Assembly: GCA_023078555.1 (NCBI GenBank)
Contig: CM041201.1
Span: 2,301,713-2,365,712 of the forward strand
Length of the DNA: 64,000 nt
Origin: Ulva prolifera
Taxonomy: Eukaryota > Chlorophyta > Ulvophyceae > Ulvales > Ulvaceae
Direction: 5' to 3'
The translations under genes and the position numbers were made by a program. The notes beneath the pieces were generated by a model, which saw only the letters and a list, made by a program, of their open reading frames with translations, was not told where the DNA came from and ran no database searches. Numbering within the stretch: position 1 is the first letter of the stretch; each line of letters opens with the position of its first letter. Positions 3,963 to 60,264 of this stretch are shown in pieces.

Positions 3963-4199
3963 GTAAGGGCCCACACGGGGGGTGGGTACGTGTTGCTTGT
4001 AAAGCAGGCAGCAACTCAGACAGTCGGGTAGGATTGCTTGTGCCCCCTGGGTCACCCTCTGGCAGCAGCCTGCCGCGGCGCACCTCCACCAGCACAATGC
4101 CCGGCAACGCTCCTCGGCTCGATTGAAACCCATGCATGATTAAGAATGCAGCACAGGCTGATAGGTTAGCCACACCTTGCTGCTATTGGGAGTCCGGAT
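3963..4199 (-). repeat. conserved 3' flank of the NLR unit (copy 1)
   Basis: This stretch closely matches 23526-23730, downstream of NLR2. Shared landmarks are the run TGCTTGTAAAGCAGGCAGCA, the run CCTGGGTCACCCTCTGGCAG and the run CCTTGCTGCTATTGGGAGTC. It shows that the duplicated unit extends past the receptor open frame. The copies differ by small indels and scattered substitutions. Confidence 0.8.
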
Positions 4200-5864
4200 T
4201 CCGCTGAGCACTGAGCGGTGGTGCCGCTTGATTCCGCTTCCCATTTCAATGAAGTACCTGATGACCACTGGCAGTTGTGCAAGACTTGCGCACCAGCTGA
4301 GGTCGAGGTGCTGTAGCTGGCTGCAATGGCTAATGCCCTCTGGCAGGTGTGTCAGGCAATGGCAGCTGCTGAGGTCAAGGTGCTGTAGCTGGCTGCAACC
4401 GCTGATGCCCTCTGGCAGGTGTGTCAGGCAATGGCAGCAGCTGAGGTCGAGGTGCTGTAGCTGGCTGCAGCTGCTGATGCCCTCTGGCAGGTGTGTAAGA
4501 CTCCTGCACTCCCTGAGGTCGAGGTGCTGTAGCTGGCTGAAATGGCTGATGCCCTCTGGCAGGTGTGTCAAGCTCTCGCAGCAGCTAAGGTCAAGGTGCT
4601 GTAGCTGGCTGTAGCCGCTGATGCCCTCTGGCAGTTGTGTAAGGCTCTTGCAACCCCTGAGGTCGAGGTACTGTAGCTGGCTAAAATGGCTGATGCCCTC
4701 TGGCAGGTGTGTCAAGCTCTCGCAGCAGCTGAGGTTTAGGTGCTGTACCTGGCTGCAGCCGCTGATGCCCTCAGGCAGTTGTGTAAGACTCTCGCAGTGG
4801 CATAGGTAGGTCGAGGTGCTGTAGCTGGTTGCAGCAGCTGATGCCCTCAGGCACTTGGGTAAGACTCTCGCATGTGCTGAGGTTGAGGTGCTGTAGCTGG
4901 CTGCAGCTGCTGATGCCCTCTGGCAGGTGTGTAAGACTCCTGCACTCCCTGAGGTCGAGGTGCTGAAGCTGGCTGAAATGGCTGATGCCCTCTGGCAGGT
5001 GTGTCAGGCTCTCGCAGCAGCTAAGGTCAAGGTGCTGTAGCTGGCTGCAGGCGCTGATGCCCTCAGGCAGGTGTGTCAGGCAATGGCAGCAGCTGAGGTC
5101 GAGGTGCTGTAGCTGGCTGCAGCTGCTGATGCCCTCTGGCAGGTGTATAAGACTCCTGCACTCCCTGAGGTCCAGGTGCTGTAGCTGGCTGCAGCCACTG
5201 ATGCCCTCTGGCAGTTGTGCAAGACTCTTGCACCAGCTAAGGTCCAGGTGCTGTAGCTGGCTGCAGCCGCTGATGCCCTCTGGCAGCTGTGTCAGACTCT
5301 TGCACCAGCTGAGGTTGAGGTGCTGTAGCTGGCTGCAGCCGCTGATGCCCTCAGGCAGTTGTGTAAGACTCTCGCAGTGGCATAGGTAGGTCGAGGTGCT
5401 GTAGCTGGTTGCAGCAGCTGATGCCCTCAGGCACTTGGGTAAGACTCTCGCATGTGCTGAGGTTGAGGTGCTGTAGCTGGCTGCAGCTGCTGATGCCCTC
5501 TGGCAGGTGTGTAAGACTCCTGCACTCCCTGAGGTCGAGGTGCTGAAGCTGGCTGAAATGGCTGATGCCCTCTGGCAGGTGTGTCAGGCTCTCGCAGCAG
5601 CTAAGGTCAAGGTGCTGTAGCTGGCTGCAGGCGCTGATGCCCTCAGGCAGGTGTGTAAGACTCAGGCACCACCTGAGGTCAAGGTGCTGTAGCTGGCTGC
5701 AGGCGCTGATGCCCTCAGGCAGGTGTGTAAGACTCTCGCAGTGGCATAGGTCGAGGTGCTGTAGCTGGTTGCAGCCGCTGATGCCCTCAGGCACTTGTGT
5801 AAGACTCTTGCATGTGTTGAGGTTGAGGTACCGGTGCTGTAGCTGGTTGCAGCCGCTGATGCCC
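4140..5864 (-). pseudogene. continuation of the NLR1 LRR array, frame-broken
   Basis: LRR coding continues without a gap in DNA homology, but in changing frames. Segments 5794-5387, 5386-4807 and 4806-4140 each read as LPEGIS...LQHLDL repeats in a different frame. The breaks are the extra C near 5924 and two copies of a 4-bp AGGT insertion, in CATAGGTAGG at 4801-4810 and 5381-5390. Because 1+4+4 = 9, the last segment is back in the frame of the main open frame and ends in a tail (VVIRYFIEMGSG...) followed by a stop at 4140. Roughly twenty more repeats would be encoded here, making the ancestral array longer than that of NLR2. The plus-strand frames here are antisense shadows. Confidence 0.8.
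4741..5650 (-). repeat. 580-bp-offset internal duplication in the LRR array
   Basis: Positions 4741-5070 and 5321-5650 match almost base for base at an offset of 580 bp, which is eight 72-bp LRR units plus the 4-bp AGGT insertion. The AGGT insertion is in both copies, so the frame break predates the duplication. A second, shorter duplication links 5741-5935 with 5964-6160 at an offset of about 223 bp. Confidence 0.8.
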
Positions 5865-8800
5865 TCAGACAGTTGTAAAAGACGCCCGCATCTGCTGAGG
5901 TTTAGGTGCTGTAGCTGGCTGCAGCCCGCTGATGCCCTCTGGCAGCTGTGTAAGACTCTCGCAGTGGCATAGGTCGAGGTGCTGTAGCTGGTTGCAGCCG
6001 CTGATGCCCTCAGGCACTTGTGTAAGACTCTTGCATGTGTTGAGGTTGAGGTACCGGTGCTGTAGCTGGTTGCAGCCGCTGATGCCCTCAGACAGTTGTA
6101 AAAGACGCCCGCATCTGCTGAGGTTTAGGTGCTGTAGCTGGCTGCAGCCGCTGATGCCCTCTGGCAGCTGTGTAAGACGCTCGCAACCCCTGAGATCGAG
6201 GTACTGTAGCTGGCTGAAATGGCTGATGCCCTCTGGCAGTTGTGCAAGACTCTTGCACCAGCTAAGGTCCAGGTGCTGTAGCTGGCTGCAGCCGCTGATG
6301 CCCTCAGGCAGGTGTGTAAGACTCTCGCAGTGGCGTAGGTCGAGGTACTGTAGCTTGCTGCAGCTGCTGATGCCCTCAGGCAGGTGTGTAAGACTCTCGC
6401 AGATGCGTAGGTCAAGGTGCTGTAGCTGGCTGCAGCCGCTGATGCCCTCAGGCAGGTGTGTAAGACTCTCGCAGTGGCTTAGGTCAAGGTGCTGTAGCTG
6501 GCTACAGCCGCTGATGCCCTCAGGCAGGTGTGTAAGACTCTCGCAGTTGTGTAGGACAAGGTGCTGTAGCTGGCTGCAGCCGCTGATGCCCTCAGGCAGG
6601 TGTGTAAGACTCTCACACCAGCTAAGGTCAAGGTGCTGTAGCTGGCTGCAGCCGCTGATGCCCTCTGGCAGCTGTGTAAGACTGTTGCACCAGCTGAGGT
6701 CGAGGTGCTGTAGCTGGCTGCAGCCGCTGATGCCCTCTGGCAGCTGTCTTATGAACATGCTCCCACTGAGGTCAAGGTGCTCCAGCTTCCCCAGCTTCCC
6801 CAGTTGCTTCACTGGAACATCGGACAATGTTCGCATCCTGAGGAACCTGAGCATGGGCCAGCAGCCAAGGTACTGCACAGCCCTTTCCCGCACAAATCCG
6901 TGAGATTCCAGCCATAGCCACTGCAGCCTTGGCGCGTATAAGCATCGCCACTGCTTGATCCAGTGCGAACGGGCCCCATCAACCACTATGCAGGCTCGCA
7001 ACCGCCTCCCATCGACCTTCAACTTTGAATCAATCGATGCATCCGCGACATGACCTGCCGGCTGGTGCGAGCTGATGTACTGCAACGATGAGGATGCATG
7101 GCTGTGTGCACTGCCTGAGATGCAGCGCTCCTGGTCCTTCATTGACAGTCGCAGCGCAATGTCCCGCAGGATGTCGTGCATGTAGTATTCATGCGTATGA
7201 TGGTGACGCAATTTGACGGAATCTGGTGCCACAGCCCTGGACACGAGGCTGCGGCTGACGAGTTGCTCGAGCTTGGCGGCGGCTGCCTTCACGCTGGCGG
7301 GCGTGTGCCAGGGCGCGTGCGTCGCAAAGAGGTGCAGCAGAGCCTCCTCCCTCACCCTCGTATCCTCGGGAAACATCGTAAAGTCCATGAAGCACTCCTT
7401 CAGTGACGGCGGCAAGATTTCAACGCTCGTTGCACAGGTCTGCGTGACAGCATCATCACGTGCACCTGCTGCCCTCTGCGCCTTCTGCACTTCCAGGCGC
7501 TCCTCCCAAGCCTCCGCTGTTCTGCAGTGCCGCAGCGCGCTGCCGAGCACTTCCAGCGCGAGGGGATTGCCGTCGCAGCTCTGCAGCAGCTCTGAGCAGG
7601 CAGCAGCAGGCACATACCCTGGTGGATCCGCATCGGCCGACCCAAAGGCATGGTGGTAGAACAGCTGCTTTGCAGGCCCTTCTTTGAGGAGACCAGGCTT
7701 ATGAATGCGCAGCTCGCGCATGCGCGTGACTTCACCTGTGCTTGGATCGCGGGGAAGGTAAGACAGAGTCTCTTCGCTCCTCGTCGTAACAATGAGCCTG
7801 CTTCCGTCATGCCGCAGACTGGGCTGCGTGGCAAAGTTCAAAGCCGCCAGCTGCAGCGGGCGGCCCTGCGACCATGGCCACAAGTCATCTAGCACCAGGA
7901 GCACTGCCCGACCCCGCTCATCTCCGCCGTGCGTCAGCCGGGCCAGTGCCTGCAGTCCCTCAGCCGCGGTTGCGAAGGGAACACTCTGGCGGGGATACAG
8001 CTTGACAAATGCCGCCTCGAGAAGGCGCAGCATTTCTCTGTCGTTTGCATCTTTCCCGACTGTCAGCCACACAGCATCGTCAAAGCGCGACCTGGCGTGC
8101 TCAAACACTGCGCGGGCGATGGTCGTCTTGCCGATGCCGCCAGCCCCGACGATGCCGATGTTGCGGTTGTCCTTGAGCTGCTCGTCAATAAGGGGCACGA
8201 GGTCGTCGCATTGCTGGAAGACGTGCTTCGGCAGGGCAGGCTCACTGCACTGCGGCAGCTCGCTCGATGGGCCTCTGTGGGGATGCATAGACGGTAACCT
8301 GCCGAAGCGGATGCGGGGCGCTGTGGGCACAGGCCCCGCCATGCGCTTCAGCGTTGAGAACAGCTGCATACTCGTGTCCAGCTTGCAGAACTTCTGCAGT
8401 GAGCAGCGCAGTTCCTTCGGCTTGCTACTGTACACAAGTCGCTGCCACCATCTTTGTGGATTGTGTTGCACGTGCAGCAGGAGCACCTCGGCCTCCTGCA
8501 GAGTGTCACACAGGTCCTGATACTGGGGCCGGTGGCTCTGAAAGTCAGGCAGATCTGTCAGCTGGTCAAGGGCATGTGCGGCTGTCAGGAGGGCCTCGTT
8601 GCTCAGCTGATCGAGCAGCTTCTGGCATTGCTTCGGGTGGCCAGCGATCATTATCGCTCGATCCACCAGCCACTGAATTGACTCCTCAACAGCCCAGCCT
8701 GCGGCATCGCTGACGATCGGCAGGGGGATGACTGTCTTCACGGCGGTGCCAGCTGCCTTTCCCGCAGCCTTGCCTGCATTCTCGCCTGCTTTCTTGCGTG

Positions 8801-8894
8801 CTTCCTTCCCATAAAACATCACCTGCAGGGCATCTGCTTTCAGATCGAGGTGCATCCTAGTATGCATGGCCACACGTGTGTGTATGCACCACAC
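5865..8894 (-). CDS. NLR1: NB-ARC-LRR receptor-like protein, C-terminally truncated
   Basis: A single open frame of 1009 residues encodes a nucleotide-binding leucine-rich-repeat protein, the class that acts as intracellular immune receptors in plants. Residues about 70-185 are helical and resemble RPW8/CC-R domains (pattern EAEVLLLHV..., SLQKFCKLD). NB-ARC follows: P-loop GIVGAGGIGKTT at about 247-258, kinase-2 VLLVLDDLW at 331-339, RNBS-B GSRLIVTTR at 364-372, a GLPL-type GNPLAL at 442-447, and MHD at 572-574. From about residue 720 there are eleven 24-residue LRRs of the type LPEGISGCSQLQHLDLS. The frame stops early because of an extra C near 5924, so the last residues (GLQPATAPKPQ...) are out of frame, and the array continues at lower coordinates. 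The start is uncertain: the shared Met in MHLDLKADALQVMF is as good as the first Met. It may give a short receptor or be a pseudogene. Confidence 0.85.
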   Translation of the reverse strand: MWCIHTRVAMHTRMHLDLKADALQVMFYGKEARKKAGENAGKAAGKAAGTAVKTVIPLPIVSDAAGWAVEESIQWLVDRAIMIAGHPKQCQKLLDQLSNEALLTAAHALDQLTDLPDFQSHRPQYQDLCDTLQEAEVLLLHVQHNPQRWWQRLVYSSKPKELRCSLQKFCKLDTSMQLFSTLKRMAGPVPTAPRIRFGRLPSMHPHRGPSSELPQCSEPALPKHVFQQCDDLVPLIDEQLKDNRNIGIVGAGGIGKTTIARAVFEHARSRFDDAVWLTVGKDANDREMLRLLEAAFVKLYPRQSVPFATAAEGLQALARLTHGGDERGRAVLLVLDDLWPWSQGRPLQLAALNFATQPSLRHDGSRLIVTTRSEETLSYLPRDPSTGEVTRMRELRIHKPGLLKEGPAKQLFYHHAFGSADADPPGYVPAAACSELLQSCDGNPLALEVLGSALRHCRTAEAWEERLEVQKAQRAAGARDDAVTQTCATSVEILPPSLKECFMDFTMFPEDTRVREEALLHLFATHAPWHTPASVKAAAAKLEQLVSRSLVSRAVAPDSVKLRHHHTHEYYMHDILRDIALRLSMKDQERCISGSAHSHASSSLQYISSHQPAGHVADASIDSKLKVDGRRLRACIVVDGARSHWIKQWRCLYAPRLQWLWLESHGFVRERAVQYLGCWPMLRFLRMRTLSDVPVKQLGKLGKLEHLDLSGSMFIRQLPEGISGCSQLQHLDLSWCNSLTQLPEGISGCSQLQHLDLSWCESLTHLPEGISGCSQLQHLVLHNCESLTHLPEGISGCSQLQHLDLSHCESLTHLPEGISGCSQLQHLDLRICESLTHLPEGISSCSKLQYLDLRHCESLTHLPEGISGCSQLQHLDLSWCKSLAQLPEGISHFSQLQYLDLRGCERLTQLPEGISGCSQLQHLNLSRCGRLLQLSEGISGCNQLQHRYLNLNTCKSLTQVPEGISGCNQLQHLDLCHCESLTQLPEGISGLQPATAPKPQQMRASFTTV

Positions 8895-12739: not shown

Positions 12740-13988
12740 CTAGCGCTACACCAAGATCATGGAAAGCCCCACGCAGCACTGCCACCTGAGCAGCCATTGT
12801 GGCAGGCGCACCGATGAAGCACGTTCACCCAGGCCATAGCAACACCATGAACAGCCACCGGCAACATTCTGGAAACACGTGGACGTGCATCCACAAAAGA
12901 AGGACAGTAATGCATGCGCAAGGCGTGCGCCCCCTGGCCCACACGCAGCTTGCAATCATGGCTTCAGCGCACTGCAGGATGGGGAATACACGTACCTGCA
13001 CATGCGCCGGGTGGTGGTATCGGGTGGCTGTTGATTCCGTGTCGGGTTCTGGTCGTGCCCAAGGCACTAGTGAGTTGCCTGGCGGGAATTTGAAACGTCG
13101 ATCCATATGGCTTGCCCGCCAATGTGTCCGACACCGTGAGACCTGCCAGGGGTGAGATGTGATTGGGTCAGCTTTGCTGACCAGGACTAATACATCGCCG
13201 AGCCGTTTAGGAAATCTTGACATCACAGGACGGGGACACGTCCATGTGGCACTTGTATCAATCAATGACAGCCAGACCTTAACAGGCAGGCTCAGACGTA
13301 GGCAGAGTCTCAGAGCAGGCTTTCGTACGTGACCACAGGTGACGAGCAATGCAGGCTGTGCACATGGTGTGGAATAGCATGACTCTGCATCATTTGACTA
13401 GTTCCTACCAACGGTGCGTGACCAGCTCCACGCCATGAATCACGAACACGCCCACTGACACTACCTTGAATACTCACACACCACGCGAGTGGTGCATGCC
13501 TGGCTTTGCCCGCCCCGGTTCGGCAAGCCAGTGCTGGCCATCAGGTCTGTGAATGCACCACAAAAGAAGAAAAGAACAAAGGAAATGAGGGCTCTCATAC
13601 TTGACTGAAAACCATGCCGGCCTCTGCTCAGCATAGCCAACCATCAGGCACCCATACAACCATACAGCGGCGCACAGAGGAAAATCGAATCCATTGAAAA
13701 ATTCTCTCGGAAAGCTCGCAGTCATCCAATACATGGCACAACCCTGGCAATGCAGTCTGGGAGTCCTGGCCACAGGCCGGTCACAGGCCGGTGAGCGCAT
13801 CAACACGGTGAGCGCATCCTTGTGGCGACGGTGGTAGGCAATGGCAGACTCATCAAGCCAGCGCCAGCGGCAGCCACCGCCCCGGCATGCGCCACTCGCG
13901 CCGCCGTCACAGGCCCCAAGCCAGGCCACTGGCGCATGAACCGTGCATACCAACACGCTGAGGCTGTCCTGCCGTGGGCGCTCACCCC
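12740..13988. repeat. duplicated non-coding segment between R block and GT5, copy 1
   Basis: Matches 53825-54831 and the earlier 52300-52430 of the second unit. It ends in the flank of the starch-synthase remnant, with the shared run GCAATGCAGTCTGGGAGTCC and CGACGGTGGTAGGCAATGGC. It carries no recognisable gene. At about 12937-12950 it holds the empty site (CACACGCAGCTTGC) for the insertion found at 52436-53824. Confidence 0.65.
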
Positions 13989-15330
13989 TCAGCGCTGCCC
14001 CTCGCAATCAACAGCCTCCGGCCCCTGTGTTTGCGCCGGCGCGTCCGCATCATCGACGCGCTCCGCTGCTACCGGCGGCCCCTCCCCGCCGTCATCATCG
14101 GAGCTCTCTGGGAAGCCCTCGGCGACGGAGGTGATGAGCTCGTGCCAGCTCGCGGCGGGCGCGTCCCAGCCGACGTCCGTGCGCATGCCCCCCTGCTGCA
14201 TGCGGCGGAACCGCGCGGAGCCGACCTCGGCGATCGCGCGGTCGAGTGCGCGGCGCAGGCGCATCACGCTCGCGGCCACCTCGCTCGCGTGTCCGCCGAT
14301 GCTGATGCGGCCGGCCTCGTAGCCAAAGGCGCGCGCGGCGGGCTTGTCCACCGGCACCGGCAGCGGCGCACCCAGGGGCCCCTGGACAGACCCAACCCTC
14401 ACAACGACACAAGTTGAGCGGCCGCGCTGAAGCATTATCGCATGCATGAGTTTGCCACCATTCTCACGGTACACCAATCACATGCGGACTGCTGCTTTCC
14501 CGGAGCTGCCCGCCTTGCCATTTATCTCCTTGCAACACCAATCACATGCAGATCAAGTCACGATTGACCCACAAACAGCACACAGTATGGCACAGCACGG
14601 CGGCCATACCTGGCCGCGGCTAGTGCCGGATAGAAGGAAGCGCCCGGCGACGATGTCGCGGAGGCCCCCGGTCGACGCGACCACCGGCACCGCGCCGTAG
14701 CGCAGCGCGGCCAGTGCGACGAGGCCGCACGGCTCGAAGCGCGACGGCACAACCAGGATGTCGGCGGCGGCCACGAGGCGGTGCGCGAGGCGCTCGTCGA
14801 AGCGCACGACGGCCGCCGCGCGCCGCAGCAGCGCCCGCGGCAGGAACCGCAGCTCCCGCTCCAGCTGCTCGTCGCCGGTGCCCATCAGCACGACCTGCCA
14901 CCGCGCCTCCTGCGCCGCAGCGTCCCCGCCCGCGACGGCCGCTGCGTCCGCACCCTGCACCACAACAGCATCAGCCATGGCGGCCCGATCTCCCCTCGCC
15001 AACAAGCTCTCCATGCATAAGATCACGGGTCGTCGCGGCTCAGAGGCTCTGTGTATCTCACGCCGGCATGCAAAACGCGGACTTTCCTGACTGCAGGGGT
15101 CACATGCAGAGATGCACAGCACAGCGTACAAAGCACGAGCGTCTCCCGCGCAAGCTCCTCCGGCCCGACGCAGCTGTGCAGCGCCTTGAGCAGCACGTCC
15201 ACGCCCTTCTGGTGCGTGAGGCGGCCGACGTACGCTATCTGGGTTGAGCGGCAGGCCCGCCATACACATGTTGAACACTGCCTCGCCGCGCTGCCTCCCG
15301 ATGGTCTCCACATCAGGGGCCCCGGCACAA
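13989..15330 (-). pseudogene. GT5 starch synthase, C-terminal half only (copy 1)
   Basis: Starch synthases of family GT5 transfer glucose from ADP-glucose to alpha-glucan in plastids. Three minus-strand exons fit: 15238-15137 (IAYVGRLTHQKGVDVLLKAL), 14954-14610 (VLMGTGDEQ, then [10 protein letters not shown] with the catalytic Glu, and STGGLRD at the ADP site) and 14381-13989 (C-terminal domain, ending GMRTDVGWDAPAASWHEL, comparable to the granule-bound enzyme's tail, then an acidic extension). Phases agree between these exons. Just upstream (15240-15330) a run with GLPLNPD looks like the linker expected before the VGRLTHQKG strand, but it is in another frame, off by one base. The whole N-terminal lobe, including the KxGG region, is missing. 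I read it as a truncated pseudogene. Confidence 0.75.
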
Positions 15331-15430
15331 GATGTGACCGGTGATTGCCGCTGCCGTTGCCGACCCAAGCCCCCAGACCCCAACCCGCCCCCCCTTCCGC
15401 AGCCGTTTCCACCTCAATCCCCGCGTCCGA
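15331..15430. other. junction region upstream of the GT5 remnant
   Basis: The C-rich run GACCCAAGCCCCCAGACCCC (about 15362) recurs at 55692 next to the second GT5 fragment and the SDR exon. It marks a rearrangement junction rather than a gene. Confidence 0.4.
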
Positions 15431-15777
15431 TCAGGTCAGCCCCGAGCGGCAGGGCGCCACGGCAGCGTCTTCATCCGCCTGCCTAGGCCAATGCACGCCC
15501 AAGCCACGGCACCCTGGGGACGTGCCCGGGCGCTGGATCACGCGGAACAGGCGGCGCGCGACGGCCGGCAAAGTACTCCCACCGGAAACCAACGGCGAGC
15601 AACGGGAGATGCACCTCACACATGTGTGTGCAGTGGCCTCGGTGAGTGCTGATGTGTTCGGTTGCATGGGTGTGTTGGTCTGTGCTGCGTGTTGCTGGTA
15701 GTGTGGGTGTGAGATTCGCCTGCTTGTTGCCTGCGGTGGTACGTGCCGCGCTTGCTTTGTCTTTGTATCACATGTGT
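15431..15777 (-). mobile_element. diverged relative of the TTACAAGGAC element end
   Basis: On the minus strand the stretch begins TGATACAAAGACAAAGCAAG near 15777, recalling the TTACAAGGACAAAGGCAGC end of the elements at 11798 and 53824, with a similar CACACCCAC-rich leader after it. No second end was found. Confidence 0.3.
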
Positions 15778-16172
15778 GTACGATGCTACGCCAAGCATGA
15801 CAGCAGAGCTGGCTTCTGAACATGTAGTCACTCCTGGCTCAAAGCAGCTGCCTGGAAGAGAGGATCCCCTGCATCACCGAAAGAATGACGCTGATACACA
15901 GCCGTCAAGCTTGTACATGTGGCATAGACGTTTTGATGTTTGTTTCAGTGTCCGAAAGCATTGAGCGAGCGCCTGCATGTACACCATATGTGGCGCGGGG
16001 AGAGGAACGTCAGAAGAGGAAGCAGCGCATTCGAGACCAAACCCCGCCTCCATGTGTACCTTCTGTCATTAATAATGTCAAGGCTTCCGAGGCAAGGTCG
16101 AGTACCGCACTGCTGAAGAGTCACAGAGGAGCATGTGTGGAATGAATCTCACCTGAACTGAAGCGCGGTACG
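15778..16172. other. intergenic stretch upstream of SDR1
   Basis: No coding exon or RNA gene is recognised. It holds the presumed promoter of the first SDR copy. Confidence 0.4.
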
Positions 16173-23751: not shown

Positions 23752-26700
23752 TCAGTCTTTTAAATGAAGTACGATGCCGCTGATGCCCTGTGGCAGTTGT
23801 GTAAGATTCTTGCAACCAAGGAGGTCGAGATCCTGTAGCTGGCTGCAGCCGCTGATGCCCTCTGGCAGGTGTGTAAGGCTCTCGCATCTGCTGAGGTTGA
23901 GGTACTGTAGCTGGCTGCAGCTGCTGATGCCCTCTGGCAGGTGTGTAAGGCTCTCGCACCAGTTGAGGTGGAGGTGCTGTAGCTGGCTGCAGCCGCTGAT
24001 GCCCTCTGGCAGTTGTGTAAGACTAATGCAACCGCTGAGGTGGAGGTGCTGTAGCTGGCTGCAGCCGCTGATGCCCTGAGGCAGTTGTGTCAGATTCTCG
24101 CACAAGCAGAGGTCGAGGTGCTGTAGCTGGCTGCAGCCGCTGATGCCCTCTGGCAGGTGTGTAAGGCACTCGCATCTGCTGAGGTCGAGGTACTGTAGCT
24201 GGCTGCAGCCGCTGATGCCCTCTGGCAGGTGTGTAAGGCTCCCGCATTCGCTGAGGTTGAGGTGCTGTAGCTGGCTGCAGCTGCTGATGCCCTCTGGCAG
24301 ATGTGTAAGGCTCTTGCAATAGCTGAGGTTGAGGTGCTGTAGCTGGCTGCAGCCGCAGATGCCCTCTGGCAGGTGTGTTAGACTCCCGCATTCGCTGAGG
24401 TTGAGGTGCTGTAGCTGGCTGCAGCTGCTGATGCCCTCTGGCAGATGTGTAAGGCTCTTGCAATAGCTGAGGTTGAGGTGCTGTAGCTGGCTGCAGCCGC
24501 AGATGCCCTCTGGCAGGTGTGTTAGACTCCCGCATTCGCTGAGGTTGAGGTGCTGTAGCTGGCTGCAGCTGCTGATGCCCTCTGGCAGATGTGTAAGACT
24601 CTTGCAATAGCTGAGGTCGAGGTGCTGTAGCTGGCTGCAGCTGCTGATGCCCTCTGGCAGGTGTGTAAGGCTCTCGCATCTGCTGAGGTTGAGGTACTGT
24701 AGCTGGCTGCAGCTGCTGATGCCCTCTGGCAGGTGTGTAAGGCTCTCGCACCAGTTGAGGTGGAGGTGCTGTAGCTGGCTGCAGCCGCTGATGCCCTCTG
24801 GCAGTTGTGTAAGACTAATGCAACCGCTGAGGTCGAGGTGCTGTAGCTGGCTGCAGCCGCTGATGCCCTGAGGCAGTTGTGTCAGATTCTCGCACAAGCA
24901 GAGGTCGAGGTGCTGTAGCTGGCTGCAGCCGCTGATGCCCTCAGGCAGTTGTGTAAGACTCTCGCACCAGGTAAGGTTGAGGTGCTGTAGCTGGCTGCAG
25001 CCGCTGATGCCCTCTGGCAGTTGTGTAAGACTCTCACACCACCTCAGGTCGAGGTGCTGTAGCTGGCTGCAGCCGCTGATGCCCTCTGGCAGTTGTGTAA
25101 GACTCTTGCAATTGCTGAGGTTGAGGTGCTGTAGCTGGCTGCAGCTGCTGATGCTGACTGGCAGTTGTGCAAGACTCTTGCAACTGCTGAGGTTGAGGTG
25201 CTGTAGCTGGCTGCAGCTGCTGATTCCCTGCGGCAGCTGAGGGATGAAAGTGCTCCCACTGAGGTCAAGGTGCTCCAGCTTCCCCAGCTTCCCCAGCTGT
25301 TCCACTGGAACATTGGACGATGTTCGCATCCTGAGGAACCTGAGCATGGGCCAGCAGCAACGGTACTCACCAGCCGTTTCCTCCGCACATCCGTGAAGTT
25401 CCAGCCATAGCCACTGCAGCCTTGGCGCGTATAGGCATCGCCACTGCTTGTCCCAGTGCGAACGGACCCCATCGACCACTACGCCGGCGAGTAGCCGCCT
25501 CCCATCGACCTTCAACTTTGGATCAATCGATGCATCCGCGACATGACCTGCCGCCTGGTGCGAGCTGATGTACCGCAACGATGAGGATGCATGGCTGTTT
25601 GCACTGCCTGAGATGCAGCGCTCTTGGTCCTCCATCGACAGTCGCAGCGCAATGTCTCGCAGGATGTCGTGCATGTAGTACTCACGCGTATGACGGTGAA
25701 GTATTGTGACGGAATCTGGTGCCACAGCCCTGGACACGAGGCTGCGGCTGACGAGTTGCTTGAGCTTGGCGGCGGCTGCCTTCACGCTGGCGGGCGTGTG
25801 CAGGGGCGCGTGCGTCGCAAAGAGGTGCAGCAAAGCCTCCTCCCCCACCCTCGCATCCTCGGGGAACATCGCGAAGTCCATGAAGCACTCCTTCAGGGAT
25901 GGCGGCAAGATTTCAACGCTCGTAGCACAGACCTGCGTGACAGCATCATCACGTGCACCTGCTGCCCTCTGCGCCTTCTGCACTTCCAGGTACTCCTCCC
26001 AAGCCTCCGCTGTCATGCATTGCCGCAGTGCGCCGCCGAGCACTGTCAGAGCGAGGGGATTGCGGCCGCAGCTCTGCAGCAGCTCTGAGCAGGCAGCAGC
26101 AGGCACATACTCTGGCGGATCCGCATCGGCCGACCCAAAGGCATGGTGGTAGAACAGCTGCTTTGCAGGCCCTTCTTTGAGGAGACCAGGCTTATGCATG
26201 CGCAGCTCGCGCATGAGCGTGACTTGATCGCGGGGAAGGTAAGACAGAGTCTCTTCGCTCCTCGTCGTAACAATGAGCCTGCTTCCGTCATGCCGCAGAT
26301 TGGGCTGCGTGGCAAAGTTCAAAGCCGCCAGCTGCAGCGCACTGTCCTGCAACCTTGGCCACAAGTCATCCAGCACCAGGAGCACCGCCCGACCCCGCTC
26401 ATCTCCGCCGTGCGTCAGCCGGGCCAGAGCCTGCAGTCCCTCAGCCGCGGTTGCGAAGGGAACAGCCTTGCGGGGATACAGCTTGACAAATGCCGCCTCG
26501 AGAAGGCGCAGCATTTCTCTATCATCAGCATCTCTCCCGACCGTCAGCCACACAGCATCGTCAAAGCGCGACCTGGCGCGCGCAAACACTGCGCGGGCGA
26601 TGGTCGTCTTGCCGATGCCGCCAGCCCCGACGATGCCGATGTTGCGGTTGTCCTTGAGCTGCTCGTCAATAAGGGGCACGAGGTCGTCGCTATGCTGGAA

Positions 26701-27384
26701 GACGTGCTTCGGCAGGGCAGGCTCACTGCACTGCGGCAGCTCGCTCGATGGGCCTCTGTGGGGATGCATAGATGGTAACCTGCCGAAGCGGATGCGGGGC
26801 GCTGTGGGCACAGACTCTGCCTTGCTCTTCAGCGCTTGGTACAGCTTCAAGGCTGTGTCCAGATCACAGACTTCCTGTAGCGAAGAGCGTAATTCCTTGG
26901 GCCTGCTGCTGTAGAACACTCGCTGCCACATCCTCTGCGACCTGGATTGCACGTGCAGCAGCAGCACCTCAGCCTCCTGCAGAGTGTCACACAGGGCACG
27001 ATACTTGGGCCGGTGGTCCGCAAATTCAGGCAGATCCGTCAGCTGGTCGAGGGCATGTGCGGCTTTCAGGAGCGCCTTGTCCCTCAGCTGATCGAGCAGC
27101 TTCCGGCACTGCTTCGGGTGGCCAGCGATCGTTATCGCTCGATCCACCAGCCACTGAATGGACTCTTCAGCAGCCCAGCCGGCAACATCGCTGACGATCG
27201 GCAGAGAAATGACAGTCTTCAGGGTGGCGCCCGCTGCCTTTCCCGCAGCCTTGCCTGCATTCTCGCCTGCTTTCTTGCGTGCTTCCTTCCCACAAAACAT
27301 CACCTGCAGAGCATCGGCTTTCAGATCGAGGTGCATCCTTGGATGCATGGCCACACGTGTGTGTATGCACGACCTGGCAGTCAA
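23752..27384 (-). CDS. NLR2: intact NB-ARC-LRR receptor-like protein
   Basis: An uninterrupted 1210-residue frame, the most complete receptor in the window. Layout: a basic Gly/Ala/Lys N-terminal stretch (KKAGENAGKAAGKAAG), a helical RPW8/CC-R-like region (about 70-185), NB-ARC with GIVGAGGIGKTTIA, VLLVLDDLW, SRLIVTTRSEE, RNPLAL and YMHDILRD, a linker, then twenty full 24-residue LRRs and a part repeat before the tail GISGIVLHLKD. The LRRs are nearly uniform (LPEGISxCSQLQHLxLSxC.SLT), with variation concentrated at the residue after LS and at the x before QLQ. Blocks of repeats are themselves duplicated. The true start may be the Met of MHLDLKADALQVMF, which is shared with NLR1; the codons before it sit in a TGCATG-rich stretch. 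Function as a pathogen or symbiont sensor is inference from the plant family; algal NLR function is not established. Confidence 0.9.
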   Translation of the reverse strand: MTARSCIHTRVAMHPRMHLDLKADALQVMFCGKEARKKAGENAGKAAGKAAGATLKTVISLPIVSDVAGWAAEESIQWLVDRAITIAGHPKQCRKLLDQLRDKALLKAAHALDQLTDLPEFADHRPKYRALCDTLQEAEVLLLHVQSRSQRMWQRVFYSSRPKELRSSLQEVCDLDTALKLYQALKSKAESVPTAPRIRFGRLPSMHPHRGPSSELPQCSEPALPKHVFQHSDDLVPLIDEQLKDNRNIGIVGAGGIGKTTIARAVFARARSRFDDAVWLTVGRDADDREMLRLLEAAFVKLYPRKAVPFATAAEGLQALARLTHGGDERGRAVLLVLDDLWPRLQDSALQLAALNFATQPNLRHDGSRLIVTTRSEETLSYLPRDQVTLMRELRMHKPGLLKEGPAKQLFYHHAFGSADADPPEYVPAAACSELLQSCGRNPLALTVLGGALRQCMTAEAWEEYLEVQKAQRAAGARDDAVTQVCATSVEILPPSLKECFMDFAMFPEDARVGEEALLHLFATHAPLHTPASVKAAAAKLKQLVSRSLVSRAVAPDSVTILHRHTREYYMHDILRDIALRLSMEDQERCISGSANSHASSSLRYISSHQAAGHVADASIDPKLKVDGRRLLAGVVVDGVRSHWDKQWRCLYAPRLQWLWLELHGCAEETAGEYRCCWPMLRFLRMRTSSNVPVEQLGKLGKLEHLDLSGSTFIPQLPQGISSCSQLQHLNLSSCKSLAQLPVSISSCSQLQHLNLSNCKSLTQLPEGISGCSQLQHLDLRWCESLTQLPEGISGCSQLQHLNLTWCESLTQLPEGISGCSQLQHLDLCLCENLTQLPQGISGCSQLQHLDLSGCISLTQLPEGISGCSQLQHLHLNWCESLTHLPEGISSCSQLQYLNLSRCESLTHLPEGISSCSQLQHLDLSYCKSLTHLPEGISSCSQLQHLNLSECGSLTHLPEGICGCSQLQHLNLSYCKSLTHLPEGISSCSQLQHLNLSECGSLTHLPEGICGCSQLQHLNLSYCKSLTHLPEGISSCSQLQHLNLSECGSLTHLPEGISGCSQLQYLDLSRCECLTHLPEGISGCSQLQHLDLCLCENLTQLPQGISGCSQLQHLHLSGCISLTQLPEGISGCSQLQHLHLNWCESLTHLPEGISSCSQLQYLNLSRCESLTHLPEGISGCSQLQDLDLLGCKNLTQLPQGISGIVLHLKD
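24270..24560 (-). repeat. 144-bp tandem block inside the NLR2 LRR array
   Basis: A two-LRR block (CKSLTHLPEGISSC..., ECGSLTHLPEGICGC) recurs about three times with almost no base changes. A further block of five LRRs beginning CENLTQLPQGISGC appears near 24865 and again near 24090. These show very recent unequal exchange within the array. Confidence 0.8.
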
Positions 27385-29344: not shown

Positions 29345-29373
29345 CCACAGCCCCCCTGAATCATCAGACTGAT

Positions 29374-32295: not shown

Positions 32296-32310
32296 TGCGC
32301 TTAACACAAT

Positions 32311-32322
32311 GAGCCCATAACC
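32311..32322 (-). promoter_or_regulatory. copia primer-binding site, initiator-tRNA-Met anticodon-loop type
   Basis: Directly inside the 5' LTR the minus strand reads GGTTATGGGCTC; its complement GAGCCCATAACC matches the anticodon arm of eukaryotic initiator tRNA-Met (GGGCYCAUAACC). This implies priming by an internal cut of the tRNA, as known for Drosophila copia, rather than by its 3' end. Confidence 0.75.
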
Positions 32323-53824: not shown

Positions 53825-53834
53825 CACACGCAGC

Positions 53835-54831
53835 TTGCAACCATGGCTGCAGCGCACTGCACCCTGGGGAACACACGTTGTGCCATGCACACGCGCCAGG
53901 TGGTCGGGTGGCTGTTGACTCCGTTTGGATTGTTGATTGTGCCGGTTGGCTGTTGATTCCGTGTGGATTGTTGATTGTGGCGTTGGAGAGCTGTCTGGCG
54001 GGAATTCGAAACATGCGATCTATCTGCCATGCTCGCCGAGCCGTGTAGGAAATCTTGACGTCACTTCATTACAGGATGGACCCAGGTGGCACTGGTATCA
54101 GTGAACGACAGCCAGAGCTTAGCAGGCAGGCTCGGACGTGGGCAGAATCTCAGGGCAGGCTTTCATACGTGACCACAGGTGACGAGCAATGCACACCGTG
54201 CACATGGTGTTGAACAGCATGACTCTGCATCATTTGACTAGCTCCTACCAACGGTGCGTGTCCAGCTCCACGCCATGGATCACGAGCGCGCCCACTGACA
54301 CTGCCTTGAATACTCACAGACATCGCGCGAGTGGTGCATGCCTGGCTTTGCCCGCGTCGGTTCGGCAAGCCAGTGCTGGCCATCAGGTCTGGGAATGCAC
54401 CACAAAAGAAGAAAAGAAAAAAGGAAATGAGGGCTCTCATGCTTGACTGAAAACAATGCCGGCCTCTGCTCAGCATAGCCAACCATCAGGCACACACACA
54501 CACAACCATACCGCAACGCACAGAAGAAAATCGAAACGATTTGTCCATTGAAAACTTCTCTCGGAAAGCTCGCAGTCATCCAATACATGGCACAGCCCTG
54601 GCAATGCAGTCTGGGAGTCCTGGCCACAGGCCGGTGAGCGCATCAACACAGTGAGTGCATTCTTGTGGCGACGGTGGTAGGCAATGGCAGACTCATCAGG
54701 CCAGCGCCAGCGGCAGCCACAGGCTCGGCATGCGCCACTCGCGCCGCCGTCACAGGCCCCAAGCCAGACCACTGGCGCATGAACCGTGCATACCAACACG
54801 CTGAGGCTGTCCTGCCGTGGGCGCTCACCCC
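53835..54831. repeat. duplicated non-coding segment before GT5, copy 2
   Basis: Matches 12937-13988, with a few indels (for example the longer CA run at 54493-54508). No gene. Confidence 0.7.
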
Positions 54832-55662
54832 TCAGCGCTGCCCCTCGCAATCAACAGCCTCCGGCCCCTGTGTTTGCGCCGGCGCGTCCGCATCATCGAC
54901 GCGCTCCGCTACTACCGGTGGCCCCTCCCCGCCGTCATCATCGGAGCTCTCTGGGAAGCCCTCGGCGACAGAGGTGATGAGCTCGTGCCAGCTCGCGGCG
55001 GGCGCGTCCCAGCCGACGTCGGCGCGCATGCCCCCCTGCTGCATGCGGCGGAACCGCGCGGTGCCGACCTCGGCGATCGCGCGGTCGAGGGCGCGGCGCA
55101 GGCGCATCACGCTCGCGGCCGCCTCGCTCGCGTCGCCGCCGATGCTGATGCGGCCGGCCTCGTATCCAAAGGCACGCGCGGCGGGCTTGTCTACCGGCAC
55201 CGGCAGCGGTGCTCCGAGGGGCCCCTGGACAGACCCAACCCTAACATCGACACAAGATGAGCGGCCGCGCTGAAGCATTATCGCATGCATGAGTTTGCCA
55301 CCATTCTCCAGGTACACCGAGCACATGCGGACTGCTGCTTTCCCGGTGCTGCCCGCCTTGCCATTCACATTCTTGCAACACCAATCACATGCAGATCAAG
55401 TCACGATTGACGCACAAGCAGCACACAGAATGGCGCAGCACAGCGGCCGTACCTGGCCGCGGTTAGTACCTGATAGAAGGAAGCGCCCGGCGAGGATGTC
55501 CCGGAGGCCCCCGGTCGAAGCGACCACCGGCACCGCACCGTAGCGCAGCGCGGCCAGCGCGACAAGGCCGCACGGCTCGAAGCGCGACGGCACAACCAGG
55601 ATGTCGGCGGCGGCCACGAGGCGGTGCGCGAGGCGCTCGTCGAAGCGCACGACGGCCGCCGC
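54832..55662 (-). pseudogene. GT5 starch synthase fragment (copy 2), shorter than copy 1
   Basis: Keeps the last exon 55224-54832 and most of the middle exon, 55662-55453, from [11 protein letters not shown] through [16 protein letters not shown] and STGGLRDIL. Compared with copy 1 it has lost the VLMGTGDEQ strand and the VGRLTHQKG exon: homology ends at GACGGCCGCCGC (55651-55662), where unrelated C-rich sequence takes over. It cannot be a working enzyme. Confidence 0.8.
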
Positions 55663-55716
55663 CGGCCCGACGCGCAAGTCGCCGGGGGCCCCCGACCCAA
55701 GCCCCCAGACCCCAAC

Positions 55717-55755
55717 CTGGACAGGAAGTGTGTTCTGATCACCGGAGGCTCGAAA
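55717..55755 (+). pseudogene. orphan SDR exon 1
   Basis: [14 protein letters not shown] followed by GTGTGTTCATG, the same exon end and intron start as SDR1 at 16203-16250. Similarity to the SDR1 intron continues to about 55990 (GTCGATCAG) and then stops. No further SDR exons follow in this unit. Confidence 0.75.
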
Positions 55756-56043
55756 GGTGTGTTCATGCCGACGGCAGCGTCGCTGCTCGTGCCAAGTACG
55801 TCAATGCACAGGTCTTTCATGAACAGAAGTGTCGTGCACGCTCACGTTTGCGTCTGCAATGTCGTTGTCCCATTCATGCAAGCACAACGCGCGTGCCAAG
55901 ACTGTGGAAAAAATTTTAAGGAGTCATCAGCTGGCATGTAACGACCTGAATATTTTTTATTATGTTGGAGGTTCAATCGGTGTCGATCAGAGCGCCAGCG
56001 GGGAATGTCACGCCCAGGACCGGCCAATGTCTAGAACGCCCAG

Positions 56044-57774: not shown

Positions 57775-60264
57775 TCAGAAATGCCCAGACCATTGCACTT
57801 TGATGCCCTCTGGAACAGCTGCTAGACTCATGCATCCACTGAGGTCGAGGTGCTGTAGCTGGCTACAACCGCTGATGGTGTCTGGCAGGTGTGTAAGTCT
57901 CCTGCATCTGCTGAGGTCGAGGTGCTGTAGCTGGCTGCAGCCGCTGATGCCCTCTGGCAGGTGTGTGAGGCTCTCGCACTGGCTGAGGTCAAGGTGCTGT
58001 AGCTGGCTGCAGCCGCTGATGCCCTCTGGCAGGTGTGTGAGGCTCTCGCACTGGCTGAGGTCAAGGTGCTGTAGCTGGCTGCAGCCGCTGATGCCCTCTA
58101 ACAGTTGTGAAAGACTCTTGCAACCCCTCAGGTTGAGGTGCTGTAGCTGGCTGCAGCTGCTGATGCCCTCTGGCAGTTGTGTCAGGATCTCGCACCAGCT
58201 GAGGTCGAGGTGCTGTAGCTGGCTGCAACCGCTGATGCCCTCTGGCAGCTGTTCTAGACTCTTGCTCCCACTGAGGTCAAGGTGCTCCAGCCTCCCCAGT
58301 CCCTCCATTCGAACCTCGGAGGCCAAGACATGGTCAAGTCGCATCCTGAGGAACCTGAGCATGGGCCAGCAGCAACGGTACTGAACAGCCGTTTCCTCCG
58401 CACGTCCGTGAAACTCCAGCCATAGCCACTGCAGCCTTGGCGCGCATAAGCATCGCCACTGCTTGTCCCAGTGCGAACGGGCCCCATCGATCACTACGCC
58501 GGCGAGTAGCCGCCTCCCATCGACCTTCAACTTTGGATCAATTGATGCATCCGCGACGTGACCTGCCGCCTGGTGCGAGCTGATGTACCGCAACATTGAG
58601 GATGCATGGCTGTGTGCACTGCCTGAGATGCAGCGCTCTTGGTCCTCCATCGACAGACGCAGCGCAATGTCTCGCAGGATGTCGTGCATGTAGTATTCAT
58701 GCGTATGATGGTGACACATTGTGACGGAATCTGGTGCCACAGCCCTGGACACGAGGCTGCGGCTGACGAGTTGCTCGAGCTTGGCGGCGGCTGCCTTCAC
58801 GCTGGCGGGCGTGTGCAGGGGCGCGTGCGTCGCAAAGAGGTGCAACAGAGCCTCCTCCCCCACCCTCGCATCCTCGGGGAACATCGCAAAGTCCATGAAG
58901 CACTCCTTCAGGGATGGCGGCAAGATTTCAACGCTCGTAGCACAGGTCCGGGTGACAGCATCATCACGTGCACCTGCTGCCCTCTGCGCCTTCTGCACTT
59001 CCAGGCGCTCCTTCCAAGCCTCCGCTGTCCTGCAGTGCCGCAGTTCGCCGCCGAGCACTACAAGCGCGAGGGCATTGCCGCCGCAGCTCTGCAGCAGCTC
59101 TGAGCAGGCAGCAGCAGGCACATACTCTGGCGGATCCGCATCGGCTGACCCAAAGGCATGGTGGTAGAACAGCTGCTTTGCAGGTCCTTCGTTGAGGGGA
59201 CCAGGCTGATAAATGCGCGTGGCATCCCCTGTGATTGGATCGCGGGGAAGGAAAGACAGAGTCTCTTCGCTCCTCGTCGTAACAATGAGCCTGCTTCCGT
59301 CATGCCGCAGACTGGGCTGCGTGGCAAAGTTCAAAGCCGCCAGCTGCAGCGGACTGCCCTGCGACCATGGCCACAAGTCATCCAGGACCAGGAGCACCGC
59401 CCGACCCCGCTCATCTCCGCCGTGCGTCAGCCGGGCCAGTGCCTGCAGTCCCTCAGCCGCGGTTGCGAATGTAACACTCTGGCGGGGATACAGCTTGACA
59501 AATGCCGCCTCGAGAAGGCGCAGCATTTCTCTGTCGTTTGCATCTTTCCCGACCGTCAGCCACACAGCATCGTCAAAGCGCGACCTGGCGCGCGCAAACA
59601 CCGCGCGGGCGATGGTCGTCTTGCCGATGCCGCCAGCCCCGACGATGCCGATGTTGCGGTTGTCCTTGAGCTGCTCGTCAAGAAGGCGCACGAGGTCGTC
59701 GCTATGCTGGAAGACGTGCTTCGGCAGGGCAGGCTCACTGCACTGCGGCAGCTCGCTCGGTGGGCCTCTGTGGGGCTGCATAGACGGTAACCTGCCGAAG
59801 GTGATGCGGGGCGCTGTGGGCACAGACTCTGCCTTGCTCTTCAGCGCTGGGTACAGCTTCAAGGCTGTGTCCAGATCACAGAACTTCTGCAGAGAGCAGC
59901 GCAGTTCCTTGGGCTTGCTACCATGCACAAGTCGCTGCCACCATCTTTGTGGCTCGTGTTGCACGTGGAGCAGGAGCAACTCGGCCTCCTGCAGAGTGTC
60001 ACACAGGGCCCGATAATCTGACCGGAGGCCCGCAAATTCAGGCAGATCCGTCAGCTGGTCGAGGGCATGTGCGGCTTTCAGGAGCGCCTCGTCGCTCAGC
60101 TGATCGAGCAGCTTCCGGCTCTGCTTCGGGTGGCCGCCGATGGCTATTCCACGTTCTACCAGCCACTGAATGGACTCTTCAGCAGCCCAGCCGGCGACAT
60201 CGCTGACGATCGGCAGAGGAATGGCTTTCGTCAAGGTGGCGCCTGCTGCCGTTCCCGCAGCCAT
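57775..60264 (-). CDS. NLR3: NB-ARC-LRR protein, N-terminally cut
   Basis: An 829-residue frame, a close paralogue of NLR1 and NLR2. NB-ARC is complete (GIVGAGGIGKTTIA, VLLVLDDLWPWSQG, SRLIVTTRSEE, GNALALVVLG, YMHDILRD) and the RPW8-like helices are mostly present (EAELLLLHV, SLQKFCDLD). It has only six LRRs plus a part repeat and ends VPEGIKVQWSGHF. At the 5' end the match to the paralogues stops at the codons for MAAGTAAGATL; upstream the DNA turns into R-block sequence at GCAGGACCAATTACTCAAGT (60270). About 40 residues of the paralogues' N-terminal stretch are therefore missing, though a Met codon happens to remain. GNALAL replaces GNPLAL. It may be expressed as a short form or be dead for lack of its promoter. 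Confidence 0.85.
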   Translation of the reverse strand: MAAGTAAGATLTKAIPLPIVSDVAGWAAEESIQWLVERGIAIGGHPKQSRKLLDQLSDEALLKAAHALDQLTDLPEFAGLRSDYRALCDTLQEAELLLLHVQHEPQRWWQRLVHGSKPKELRCSLQKFCDLDTALKLYPALKSKAESVPTAPRITFGRLPSMQPHRGPPSELPQCSEPALPKHVFQHSDDLVRLLDEQLKDNRNIGIVGAGGIGKTTIARAVFARARSRFDDAVWLTVGKDANDREMLRLLEAAFVKLYPRQSVTFATAAEGLQALARLTHGGDERGRAVLLVLDDLWPWSQGSPLQLAALNFATQPSLRHDGSRLIVTTRSEETLSFLPRDPITGDATRIYQPGPLNEGPAKQLFYHHAFGSADADPPEYVPAAACSELLQSCGGNALALVVLGGELRHCRTAEAWKERLEVQKAQRAAGARDDAVTRTCATSVEILPPSLKECFMDFAMFPEDARVGEEALLHLFATHAPLHTPASVKAAAAKLEQLVSRSLVSRAVAPDSVTMCHHHTHEYYMHDILRDIALRLSMEDQERCISGSAHSHASSMLRYISSHQAAGHVADASIDPKLKVDGRRLLAGVVIDGARSHWDKQWRCLCAPRLQWLWLEFHGRAEETAVQYRCCWPMLRFLRMRLDHVLASEVRMEGLGRLEHLDLSGSKSLEQLPEGISGCSQLQHLDLSWCEILTQLPEGISSCSQLQHLNLRGCKSLSQLLEGISGCSQLQHLDLSQCESLTHLPEGISGCSQLQHLDLSQCESLTHLPEGISGCSQLQHLDLSRCRRLTHLPDTISGCSQLQHLDLSGCMSLAAVPEGIKVQWSGHF

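Follow-up and report, generated by a model that had tools for sequence, protein, structure and literature searches.

The three NLR genes described here raise the question of whether an RPW8/CC-R-type N-terminus, as found in plant helper NLRs, exists in a chlorophyte. A 2016 survey found no RPW8 in eight algae and proposed that it arose de novo in land plants (PMC5039405). A first-pass annotation of the window (the whole 64,000-nucleotide stretch of DNA that was analyzed) had recognized three NLRs with textbook NB-ARC motifs in what looked like a green alga, and had noted by eye that the helical region ahead of the NB-ARC recalls RPW8.

Gene organization

Three long ORFs are found in the window, all on the minus strand, with a 72-bp LRR array behind the NB-ARC in each gene:

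5865..8894, minus strand: NLR1 ORF of 1009 aa with its first ATG at position 8867 (residue 10); its product comprises a helical N-terminal region followed by NB-ARC, winged helix and LRR
23752..27384, minus strand: NLR2 ORF of 1210 aa with its first ATG at position 27348 (residue 13)
57775..60264, minus strand: NLR3 ORF, 829 aa
4258..6747, minus strand: NLR1 LRR array with 34.3 repeats of 72 bp
23776..25236, minus strand: NLR2 LRR array, 20.3 units, in frame
57801..58286, minus strand: NLR3 LRR array, 6.8 units

Compared with NLR1, the NLR3 ORF is missing about 40 codons at its 5' end, and the DNA adjoining those codons is absent too. LRR_8 exceeds its Pfam cut-off in all three proteins, and several LRR cut-offs are passed by all of them. 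The NLR1 array continues past the ORF end at 5865, with LRR units going on in other frames through three frame changes; the left edge drawn in the first-pass annotation (4140) falls inside this part of the array. Matches to bacterial effectors in NCBIfam are LRR cross-hits below cut-off and were read as repeat similarity only, not as kinship.

The N-terminal/NB-ARC regions of the three paralogues share 84–88% identity (tblastn rows). The dN/dS is below 1 in both the N-terminal domain and the NB-ARC, with values of 0.40–0.58 for the N-terminal domain in all three pairs (ratios only). When the N-terminal 690 residues of each NLR were used to search the window, nothing came up besides the three genes and LRR units, and no relatives were detected in two scans of viral contigs and one of genome contigs (viral and prokaryotic collections).

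NB-ARC domain and motifs

The NB-ARC domains score far above the Pfam cut-off of 23.5 bits:

7467..8171, minus strand: NLR1 NB-ARC, 74.7 bits
25960..26652, minus strand: NLR2 NB-ARC, 73.0 bits
58978..59691, minus strand: NLR3 NB-ARC, 70.4 bits

The P-loop (GAGGIGKTT), kinase-2 (LLVLDDLW), RNBS-D (CFMDF[AT]MFPED) and MHD motifs are intact, and GLPL reads GNPLAL, RNPLAL or GNALAL. By these motifs and the C-terminal LRR array the three genes are plant-type NLRs (NB-ARC-LRR), which confirms the first-pass observation of three NLRs. The final W of kinase-2, present in all nine RNL and CNL references and in 0 of the 4 TNLs, is found in the algal proteins, and no TIR domain was matched in any of the three at E≤10.

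According to PMC6691002, RNLs are marked by QHD instead of MHD and by an RNBS-D of the form CFLDLGxFP with Gly at position 6. All three algal NLRs have MHD and not QHD; their RNBS-D retains Asp4 but has Ala or Thr at position 6, without Gly6 and with no Cys at positions 5–7. The absence of both RNL hallmarks speaks against the first-pass interpretation.

The N-terminal helical region

The regions compared with RPW8 and CC-R are as follows:

8319..8774, minus strand: NLR1 CC-R/RPW8-like region, residues 41-192; scores 17.9 bits with Pfam RPW8 (E 0.0025), under the cut-off
26808..27261, minus strand: NLR2 CC-R/RPW8-like region; Pfam RPW8 15.7 bits, E 0.012, below cut-off
59812..60264, minus strand: NLR3 CC-R/RPW8-like region; no Pfam RPW8 match, SW score against NRG1A 57

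None of the three regions reaches the curated RPW8 gathering cut-off of 30.4 bits, and a genuine RNL fragment (8zf0 residues 9-138) itself scores just 17.5 bits with this profile. Among Pfam families, RPW8 ranks first for NLR1, where DUF2397 (E 0.072) is the sole other match, and it is the sole family at E≤10 for NLR2. The two RPW8 matches are collinear over 95–99 of the 139 profile positions and the consensus matches too, while none of four controls (two shuffled, two reversed) does. For NLR3 the top Pfam match is SLH and the top PDB match an S-layer protein (E 0.031). When NLR1 was compared with 177,635 PDB sequences, the first three matches were the NRG1 chains 7l7w, 7l7v and 8yl6 (E 0.051, 0.14 and 0.37), headed by the CC-R domain of Arabidopsis NRG1. 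SW scores against NRG1A were 70 for NLR1 and 57 for NLR3, neither equaled in 1000 shuffles, hydrophobic-pattern-keeping shuffles included; the NLR2 score was not significant (149 of 1000 shuffles), and against ADR1, ADR1-L2 and 8zf0 no significant match came from any of the three. A three-sequence profile of the region matched no NLR in the PDB at E≤10.

The N-terminus could instead be a generic CC (Rx_N-like, CC-G10-like or of the Cbl-N/MAEPL type of non-flowering plants) whose likeness to RPW8 reflects the shared descent of all such four-helix bundles, an explanation that we regard as rather unlikely. The RPW8 match is not specific, because the CC of the CNL control ZAR1 also obtains 16.6 bits with this profile, near the score of NLR1. 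With a local four-sequence CC-R profile, pattern-keeping shuffles equaled the scores of NLR1, NLR2 and NLR3 in 2, 63 and 6 of 2000 cases, versus 39, 7 and 118 of 2000 with a CC profile, and NLR2 thus leans toward CC. By hhalign, the score against four CC-R domains is 26.2 (maximum of 100 column shuffles 21.9; hhalign's own probability 18%), and that against three CC domains, 19.6, is also slightly above its shuffles (maximum 18.7). MHD in the place where RNLs have QHD likewise suits a generic CC. Against it, Rx_N is silent at E≤10 in all three NLRs and in their consensus, whereas ZAR1, NRC2 and NRC3 match it at 63–73 bits; the acidic EDVID-type stretch is missing by eye, with EAEVLLLHV at the site; and it is NRG1 that leads the PDB search of NLR1.

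A helical domain of separate origin (specific to algae, HeLo/MLKL-like or a membrane anchor) that matches RPW8 by chance would accommodate the fact that every profile score is under its cut-off and that NLR3 has none, as well as the low confidence of the fold models. AlphaFold gave a 686-residue model with pLDDT 35 and an all-helical 152-residue model with pLDDT 47, both too weak for use, and in a Foldseek search with the low-confidence model the best E was 1.3 and no CC-R appeared among the best 50 of 98 matches. Such a chance match is nonetheless improbable given the collinear matches in two paralogues and the consensus, the two SW comparisons unequaled by shuffles and the NRG1 chains heading an unbiased PDB search, and neither MLKL_N nor HeLo was matched in the N-terminal regions by Pfam at E≤10.

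The resemblance to RPW8 seen by eye in the first-pass annotation therefore stands in part. It is carried by sub-threshold RPW8 matches in two of the three paralogues with Rx_N silent and by NRG1 as the top PDB match of NLR1, but not by a score at the cut-off, not by NLR3, and not to the exclusion of ZAR1; structure prediction returned the helices but no confident four-helix bundle. The peptides quoted for it, EAEVLLLHV and SLQKFC.LD, are present, the second reading SLQEVCDLD in NLR2 and the first EAELLLLHV in NLR3.

Winged helix and NB-ARC phylogeny

The winged-helix regions match WH_DRP below its cut-off:

7155..7376, minus strand: NLR1 winged helix, WH_DRP 15.3 bits; RNL-leaning by pairwise score
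25648..25869, minus strand: NLR2 winged helix, WH_DRP 14.2 bits
58663..58884, minus strand: NLR3 winged helix, WH_DRP 14.9 bits

Across the three NLRs, pairwise Z was 12.9–20.8 against four RNLs, 6.8–13.7 against four CNLs and 0.1–2.8 against four TNLs (12.9–19.7, 8.2–13.7 and 0.3–2.3 for NLR1). These higher scores against RNLs speak for the first-pass interpretation and count against a generic CC N-terminus, while the winged-helix tree, in which TNLs (100/99) stand apart from alga, RNLs and CNLs, favors it by placing the alga weakly beside CNLs (75/76); the grouping of alga with RNLs is not rejected for this region (p-AU 0.25). The NB-ARC part before the winged helix does not lean toward RNLs, its best pairwise scores being to N (NLR1) and MLA13 (NLR3) in a comparison of these two NLRs with references other than NRG1A. 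In the PDB, the profile of the whole N-terminal/NB-ARC region finds the CNL MLA13 first and an RNL after it, which again fits a generic CC.

In the main NB-ARC tree (13 references), each land-plant class is monophyletic at 99/98 or better without the alga (RNL 99/99, CNL 99/98), and the algal NB-ARCs form their own long branch outside each class. The phylogeny suggested in the first-pass annotation thus does not join them to the RNL clade, though alga+RNL is not rejected (p-AU 0.19; 0.171 without NRG1A) and neither is alga+CNL (0.449; 0.179 without NRG1A). The tree sets the alga beside TNLs at 64/54, or 83/83 without NRG1A.

That these are ordinary land-plant NLRs, or come from a source other than a green alga, is very unlikely given their place outside every land-plant class, a G+C of 51–66% (2-kb steps) with 0.70–0.72 at third positions of the NLRs, values unusual for land plants, and a neighboring ORF whose best PDB match is a plant starch synthase with bacterial-type glycogen synthases close behind, which is weak evidence for the green lineage and none for chlorophytes in particular.

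Classification and proposed mechanism

We class the genes among the non-TIR NLRs of plant type, with an N-terminus of the CC/RPW8 superfamily. They are not filed as RNLs because QHD and the RNBS-D Gly6 are missing and the RPW8 scores are below cut-off; a TNL assignment was ruled out by the missing TIR and the kinase-2 W, despite the position beside TNLs in the NB-ARC tree. The reading that we favor, and hold to be probable, is a segmentally duplicated cluster of such NLRs in which a helical N-terminus of the CC/CC-R (RPW8) superfamily, probably nearer RPW8 than Rx-type CC, precedes an NB-ARC whose winged helix scores nearest RNLs and an LRR array of unequal length. In their clustered copies and unequal LRR arrays the genes look more like sensors or singletons than conserved low-copy helpers. 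For the question of EDS1/PAD4/SAG101, one simple lipase-motif pattern had no match within the window.

Under the favored reading, the resting protein would hold ADP in its NB-ARC and the LRR array would sense a pathogen-derived or disturbed-self ligand. Exchange of ADP for ATP may then drive oligomerization, after which the N-terminal four-helix bundles could enter the membrane as a cation (Ca2+) channel, and the cell would be killed or alarmed.

Possible implications for the origin of helper NLRs

A more far-reaching idea, possible but on balance doubtful, is that these are pre-RNL receptors of a chlorophyte, in which an RPW8-type executioner and an RNL-type winged helix were joined before the chlorophyte-streptophyte split and before QHD and the RNBS-D Gly6 arose. 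If so, RPW8 would not be a de novo land-plant invention, contrary to the proposal in PMC5039405. Helper NLRs would then descend from sensor-like clustered RPW8 receptors. Should the source be a chlorophyte and the N-terminus a true CC-R, the channel-forming arm of plant immunity would be far older than land plants, and one could test, from transitional motifs such as MHD and the missing Gly6, in what order the steps toward helper NLRs were taken. The abstract of Feng et al. 2024, a study of algal NLRs, reportedly names green-algal proteins of the RNL and TNL types; if it does, the genes here would be a further member and not the first. PMC12856790 cites the same study both for chlorophyte NLRs and for the finding that NLRs of algae trigger immune responses in Nicotiana benthamiana.

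Comparison with known receptors

With the RNL helpers NRG1 and ADR1 the algal NLRs share a weak CC-R/RPW8 similarity of the N-terminus, strongest to NRG1, the winged helix that is nearest by pairwise score, the stretches CF.D..FPED and HD.LRD.AL..S, and the terminal W of kinase-2. Unlike those helpers, they have MHD and an Ala/Thr6 in RNBS-D, lie outside the RNL clade, and come as clustered copies with long repetitive LRR arrays. The CNLs (ZAR1, Sr35, MLA, NRCs) resemble them in the non-TIR NB-ARC, the helical N-terminus, the hydrophobic residue before HD, an RNBS-B near that of MLA/Sr35 and the weak winged-helix tree affinity, but differ in the Rx_N match and EDVID-type stretch (by eye) that the algal NLRs lack and in winged-helix raw scores, which are lower than against RNLs.

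Among chlorophytes, NB-LRR genes are mentioned for Chromochloris zofingiensis (TIR type), Botryococcus braunii and Ulva in PMC7145615, PMC10952240 and PMC8891106. These are likewise NB-ARC-LRR genes of green algae, and those of C. zofingiensis are clustered too, but by description the latter are TIR-NLRs whereas the genes here have no TIR. The RPW8-NLRs of mosses and a liverwort described in PMC6691002 have a CNL-type NB-ARC; by that description they are alike in joining an RPW8-like N-terminus to an NB-ARC without the full RNL signatures, and unlike in that the winged helix here is nearer RNLs than CNLs by score.

NLR genes and their LRR arrays

Three genes encoding NB-ARC/LRR proteins lie in the window:

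5865-8894, minus strand, NLR1 ORF, 1009 aa
23752-27384, minus strand, NLR2 ORF, 1210 aa
57775-60264, minus strand, NLR3 ORF, 829 aa

The first-pass annotation of three NLR genes with good NB-ARC motifs is confirmed, since NB-ARC and LRR_8 exceed the Pfam cut-offs in all three proteins by profile scan and the NB-ARC motifs are intact. A tblastn search using residues 1-690 of every protein as queries returned no further NLR pieces in the window beyond the three genes and LRR units. The 72-bp LRR units amount to 34.3 copies in NLR1, 20.3 in NLR2 and 6.8 in NLR3. The ORFs of NLR2 and NLR3 stay open through their arrays, whereas that of NLR1 stops within its own array and the units carry on out of frame at 4258-5865, where the reading frame shifts three times. 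This out-of-frame tail is either decay or an assembly error.

Affinity of the N-terminal region

The N-terminal region, previously likened to RPW8 by eye, was scanned against Pfam with matches listed to E ≤ 10 and an RPW8 cut-off of 30.4 bits. RPW8 was found in NLR1 only when whole proteins were scanned (13.0 bits, E 0.08) and in two of the three members over residues 1 to about 230 (NLR2 14.2 bits, E 0.035; best E 0.0065). With a core of 151-152 residues, RPW8 ranked first among families for NLR1 (17.9 bits, E 0.0025) and was the sole family for NLR2 (15.7 bits, E 0.012) and the core consensus (14.9 bits, E 0.021), all below the cut-off, and was absent from the NLR3 core at E ≤ 10. Rx_N was absent at E ≤ 10 from every Pfam scan of the algal sequences (whole protein, N-terminal region, core and consensus). 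The RPW8 positive controls ADR1 and NRG1A reached 46.2 and 92.6 bits, and the 8zf0 fragment, titled 'RPW8 domain-containing protein', just 17.5 bits. Among three CNL controls, NRC2 and NRC3 had no RPW8 match and ZAR1 scored 16.6 bits with RPW8 and 72.8 with Rx_N; shuffled or reversed copies matched RPW8 in 0 of 4 cases. In these scans the proposed likeness is partly supported: NLR1 and NLR2 match RPW8 and not Rx_N, at sub-threshold scores like that of the CNL ZAR1, and NLR3 matches neither.

Using phmmer against 177,635 PDB sequences (E ≤ 10), the NLR1 region had four matches. The top three were chains of NRG1 (At5g66900), including two short N-terminal-domain constructs (E 0.051 and 0.14). 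Neither the NLR3 region in phmmer against the same 177,635 sequences nor a three-sequence profile of the region against PDB returned an NLR. Smith-Waterman scores were obtained for 3 × 7 comparisons and then for 3 × 9 with shuffles keeping the hydrophobic pattern; the only pairs whose score 0/1000 shuffles reached in both sets were NLR1-NRG1A and NLR3-NRG1A, and for NLR2-NRG1A 149/1000 did so in the second. The hhalign score was 26.2 against a CC-R alignment (probability 18%, shuffles up to 21.9) and 19.6 against a CC alignment (2%, shuffles up to 18.7), and small local profiles gave NLR1 and NLR3 a preference for CC-R, and NLR2 one for CC. AlphaFold2, run on an alignment of only three sequences, gave pLDDT 35 for 686 aa and, for 152 aa, an all-helical model with seven helical stretches at pLDDT 47; a Foldseek search with the low-pLDDT model had no significant match. 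From these sequence comparisons, we read the N-terminus as a probable member of the CC/CC-R superfamily leaning towards RPW8, with its class not proven.

Placement relative to land-plant classes

Van Ghelder et al. (PMC6691002) describe RNLs as having RNBS-D CFLDLGxFP with Gly6, plus QHD, and RPW8-NLRs of mosses and a liverwort as having CNL signatures instead. The algal RNBS-D is CFMDF[AT]MFPED, resembling RNLs in Asp4 and in having no cysteine. It differs at position 6, which is not Gly, and MHD stands in place of QHD, with M for the first residue. Because both of these defining features are absent, we do not call the algal proteins RNLs. The mixed motif states might fit a sister or precursor of RNLs.

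In an NB-ARC tree of 16 sequences (3 algal, 4 RNL, 5 CNL and 4 TNL), each land-plant class was monophyletic at 99/98 or better, and the algal proteins formed a separate long branch beside TNLs at 64/54 (83/83 without NRG1A). In this tree they fall outside each class; neither alga+RNL (p-AU 0.19) nor alga+CNL (p-AU 0.449) was rejected. The final kinase-2 residue is W, as in 9/9 RNL/CNL references and 0/4 TNLs. A winged-helix-only tree (15 sequences) split off TNLs at 100/99, kept RNLs together at 81/80 and put the alga beside CNLs at 75/76, with alga+RNL not rejected (p-AU 0.25). Pairwise winged-helix raw scores were highest with RNLs for all three paralogues; the CNL pieces are shorter, most so those other than ZAR1, which depresses their scores, yet even ZAR1 had a lower raw score than any of the four RNLs with every paralogue. 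Z values show a slight overlap between the classes (NLR1 with ZAR1 13.7 vs ADR1 12.9). Before the winged helix, pairwise scores without NRG1A were best with N (176) and ADR2 (160) for NLR1 (8zf0 149, ADR1 86) and with MLA13 (191) and N (176) for NLR3 (8zf0 144, ADR1 67); this region has no RNL lean in NLR1 and NLR3, the two proteins compared. In PDB the top match of the whole N-terminal/NB-ARC profile was MLA13 (E 1.6e-15), followed by RNL 8zf0 (2.6e-14) and ZAR1.

Published studies report no RPW8 in eight algae, with the proposal that it arose de novo in early land plants (PMC5039405), TIR-NLRs in C. zofingiensis and CC/RPW8-like bundles in streptophyte algae (PMC10952240), clusters of NLRs near EDS1 genes in C. 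zofingiensis (PMC7145615), NB-LRRs in Botryococcus and Ulva (PMC8891106) and a CC/RPW8 lineage spanning algae to angiosperms (PMC11218826). Because of this literature, including Feng et al. 2024 on algal NLRs as cited in PMC12856790 and PMC12787737, we do not claim priority.

Cluster origin and possible role

The three genes sit inside duplicated blocks, self-comparison giving 88% over 3.7 kb for NLR1 and NLR2, 90% over 2.5 kb for NLR1 and NLR3, and 93% between 9.5-11.1 kb and 60.3-61.9 kb. NLR3 coding sequence at 60264-60300 abuts DNA found ~740 bp further upstream in NLR1, so roughly 40 codons from the start of the NLR1 ORF, with adjoining DNA, are missing from NLR3; its 5′ region was therefore lost or exchanged. 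Across the three pairs, the N-terminal domain has dN/dS point estimates of 0.40-0.58, the NB-ARC and winged helix of 0.42-0.80, and residues 600-690 of 0.70-1.10. In the N-terminal domain dS is 0.27-0.38, against 0.07-0.10 in the NB-ARC, a difference of about three- to four-and-a-half-fold. This suggests that the copies have recombined or undergone conversion.

If these proteins work like the CNL and RNL resistosomes described in PMC10952240 and PMC12856790, the LRR array would sense, nucleotide exchange and then oligomerisation would follow, and the helical bundle would insert into the membrane and conduct Ca2+. The part directly established is the anatomy. Gene clustering and LRR arrays of differing size speak more for sensors than for helpers.

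Surroundings in the window

G+C ranges from 51-66% in 2-kb steps. Together with the starch-synthase match and the interrupted dehydrogenase ORF described below, this is compatible with a green alga, without being proof of one. Other features are:

28799-32870, minus strand, Copia-type LTR retrotransposon with gag and RVT_2 domains
13195-16391 and 54033-55910, duplicated segments
14553-15413, minus strand, within 13195-16391, C-terminal fragment of starch/glycogen synthase (GT5)
21012-22016 and about 17174-17596, plus strand, short-chain dehydrogenase pieces containing INNVGTN / VNNVGTN
834-1079, minus strand, protein-kinase catalytic-loop motif HGDIKPSN

The LTRs of the Copia-type element (28799-29345 and 32323-32870) are 99.8% identical, and it was therefore inserted recently. 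The best PDB match of the GT5 ORF is a plant starch synthase, with glycogen synthases close behind. The dehydrogenase piece at 21012-22016 is Pfam-confirmed and, by inspection, looks intron-interrupted.
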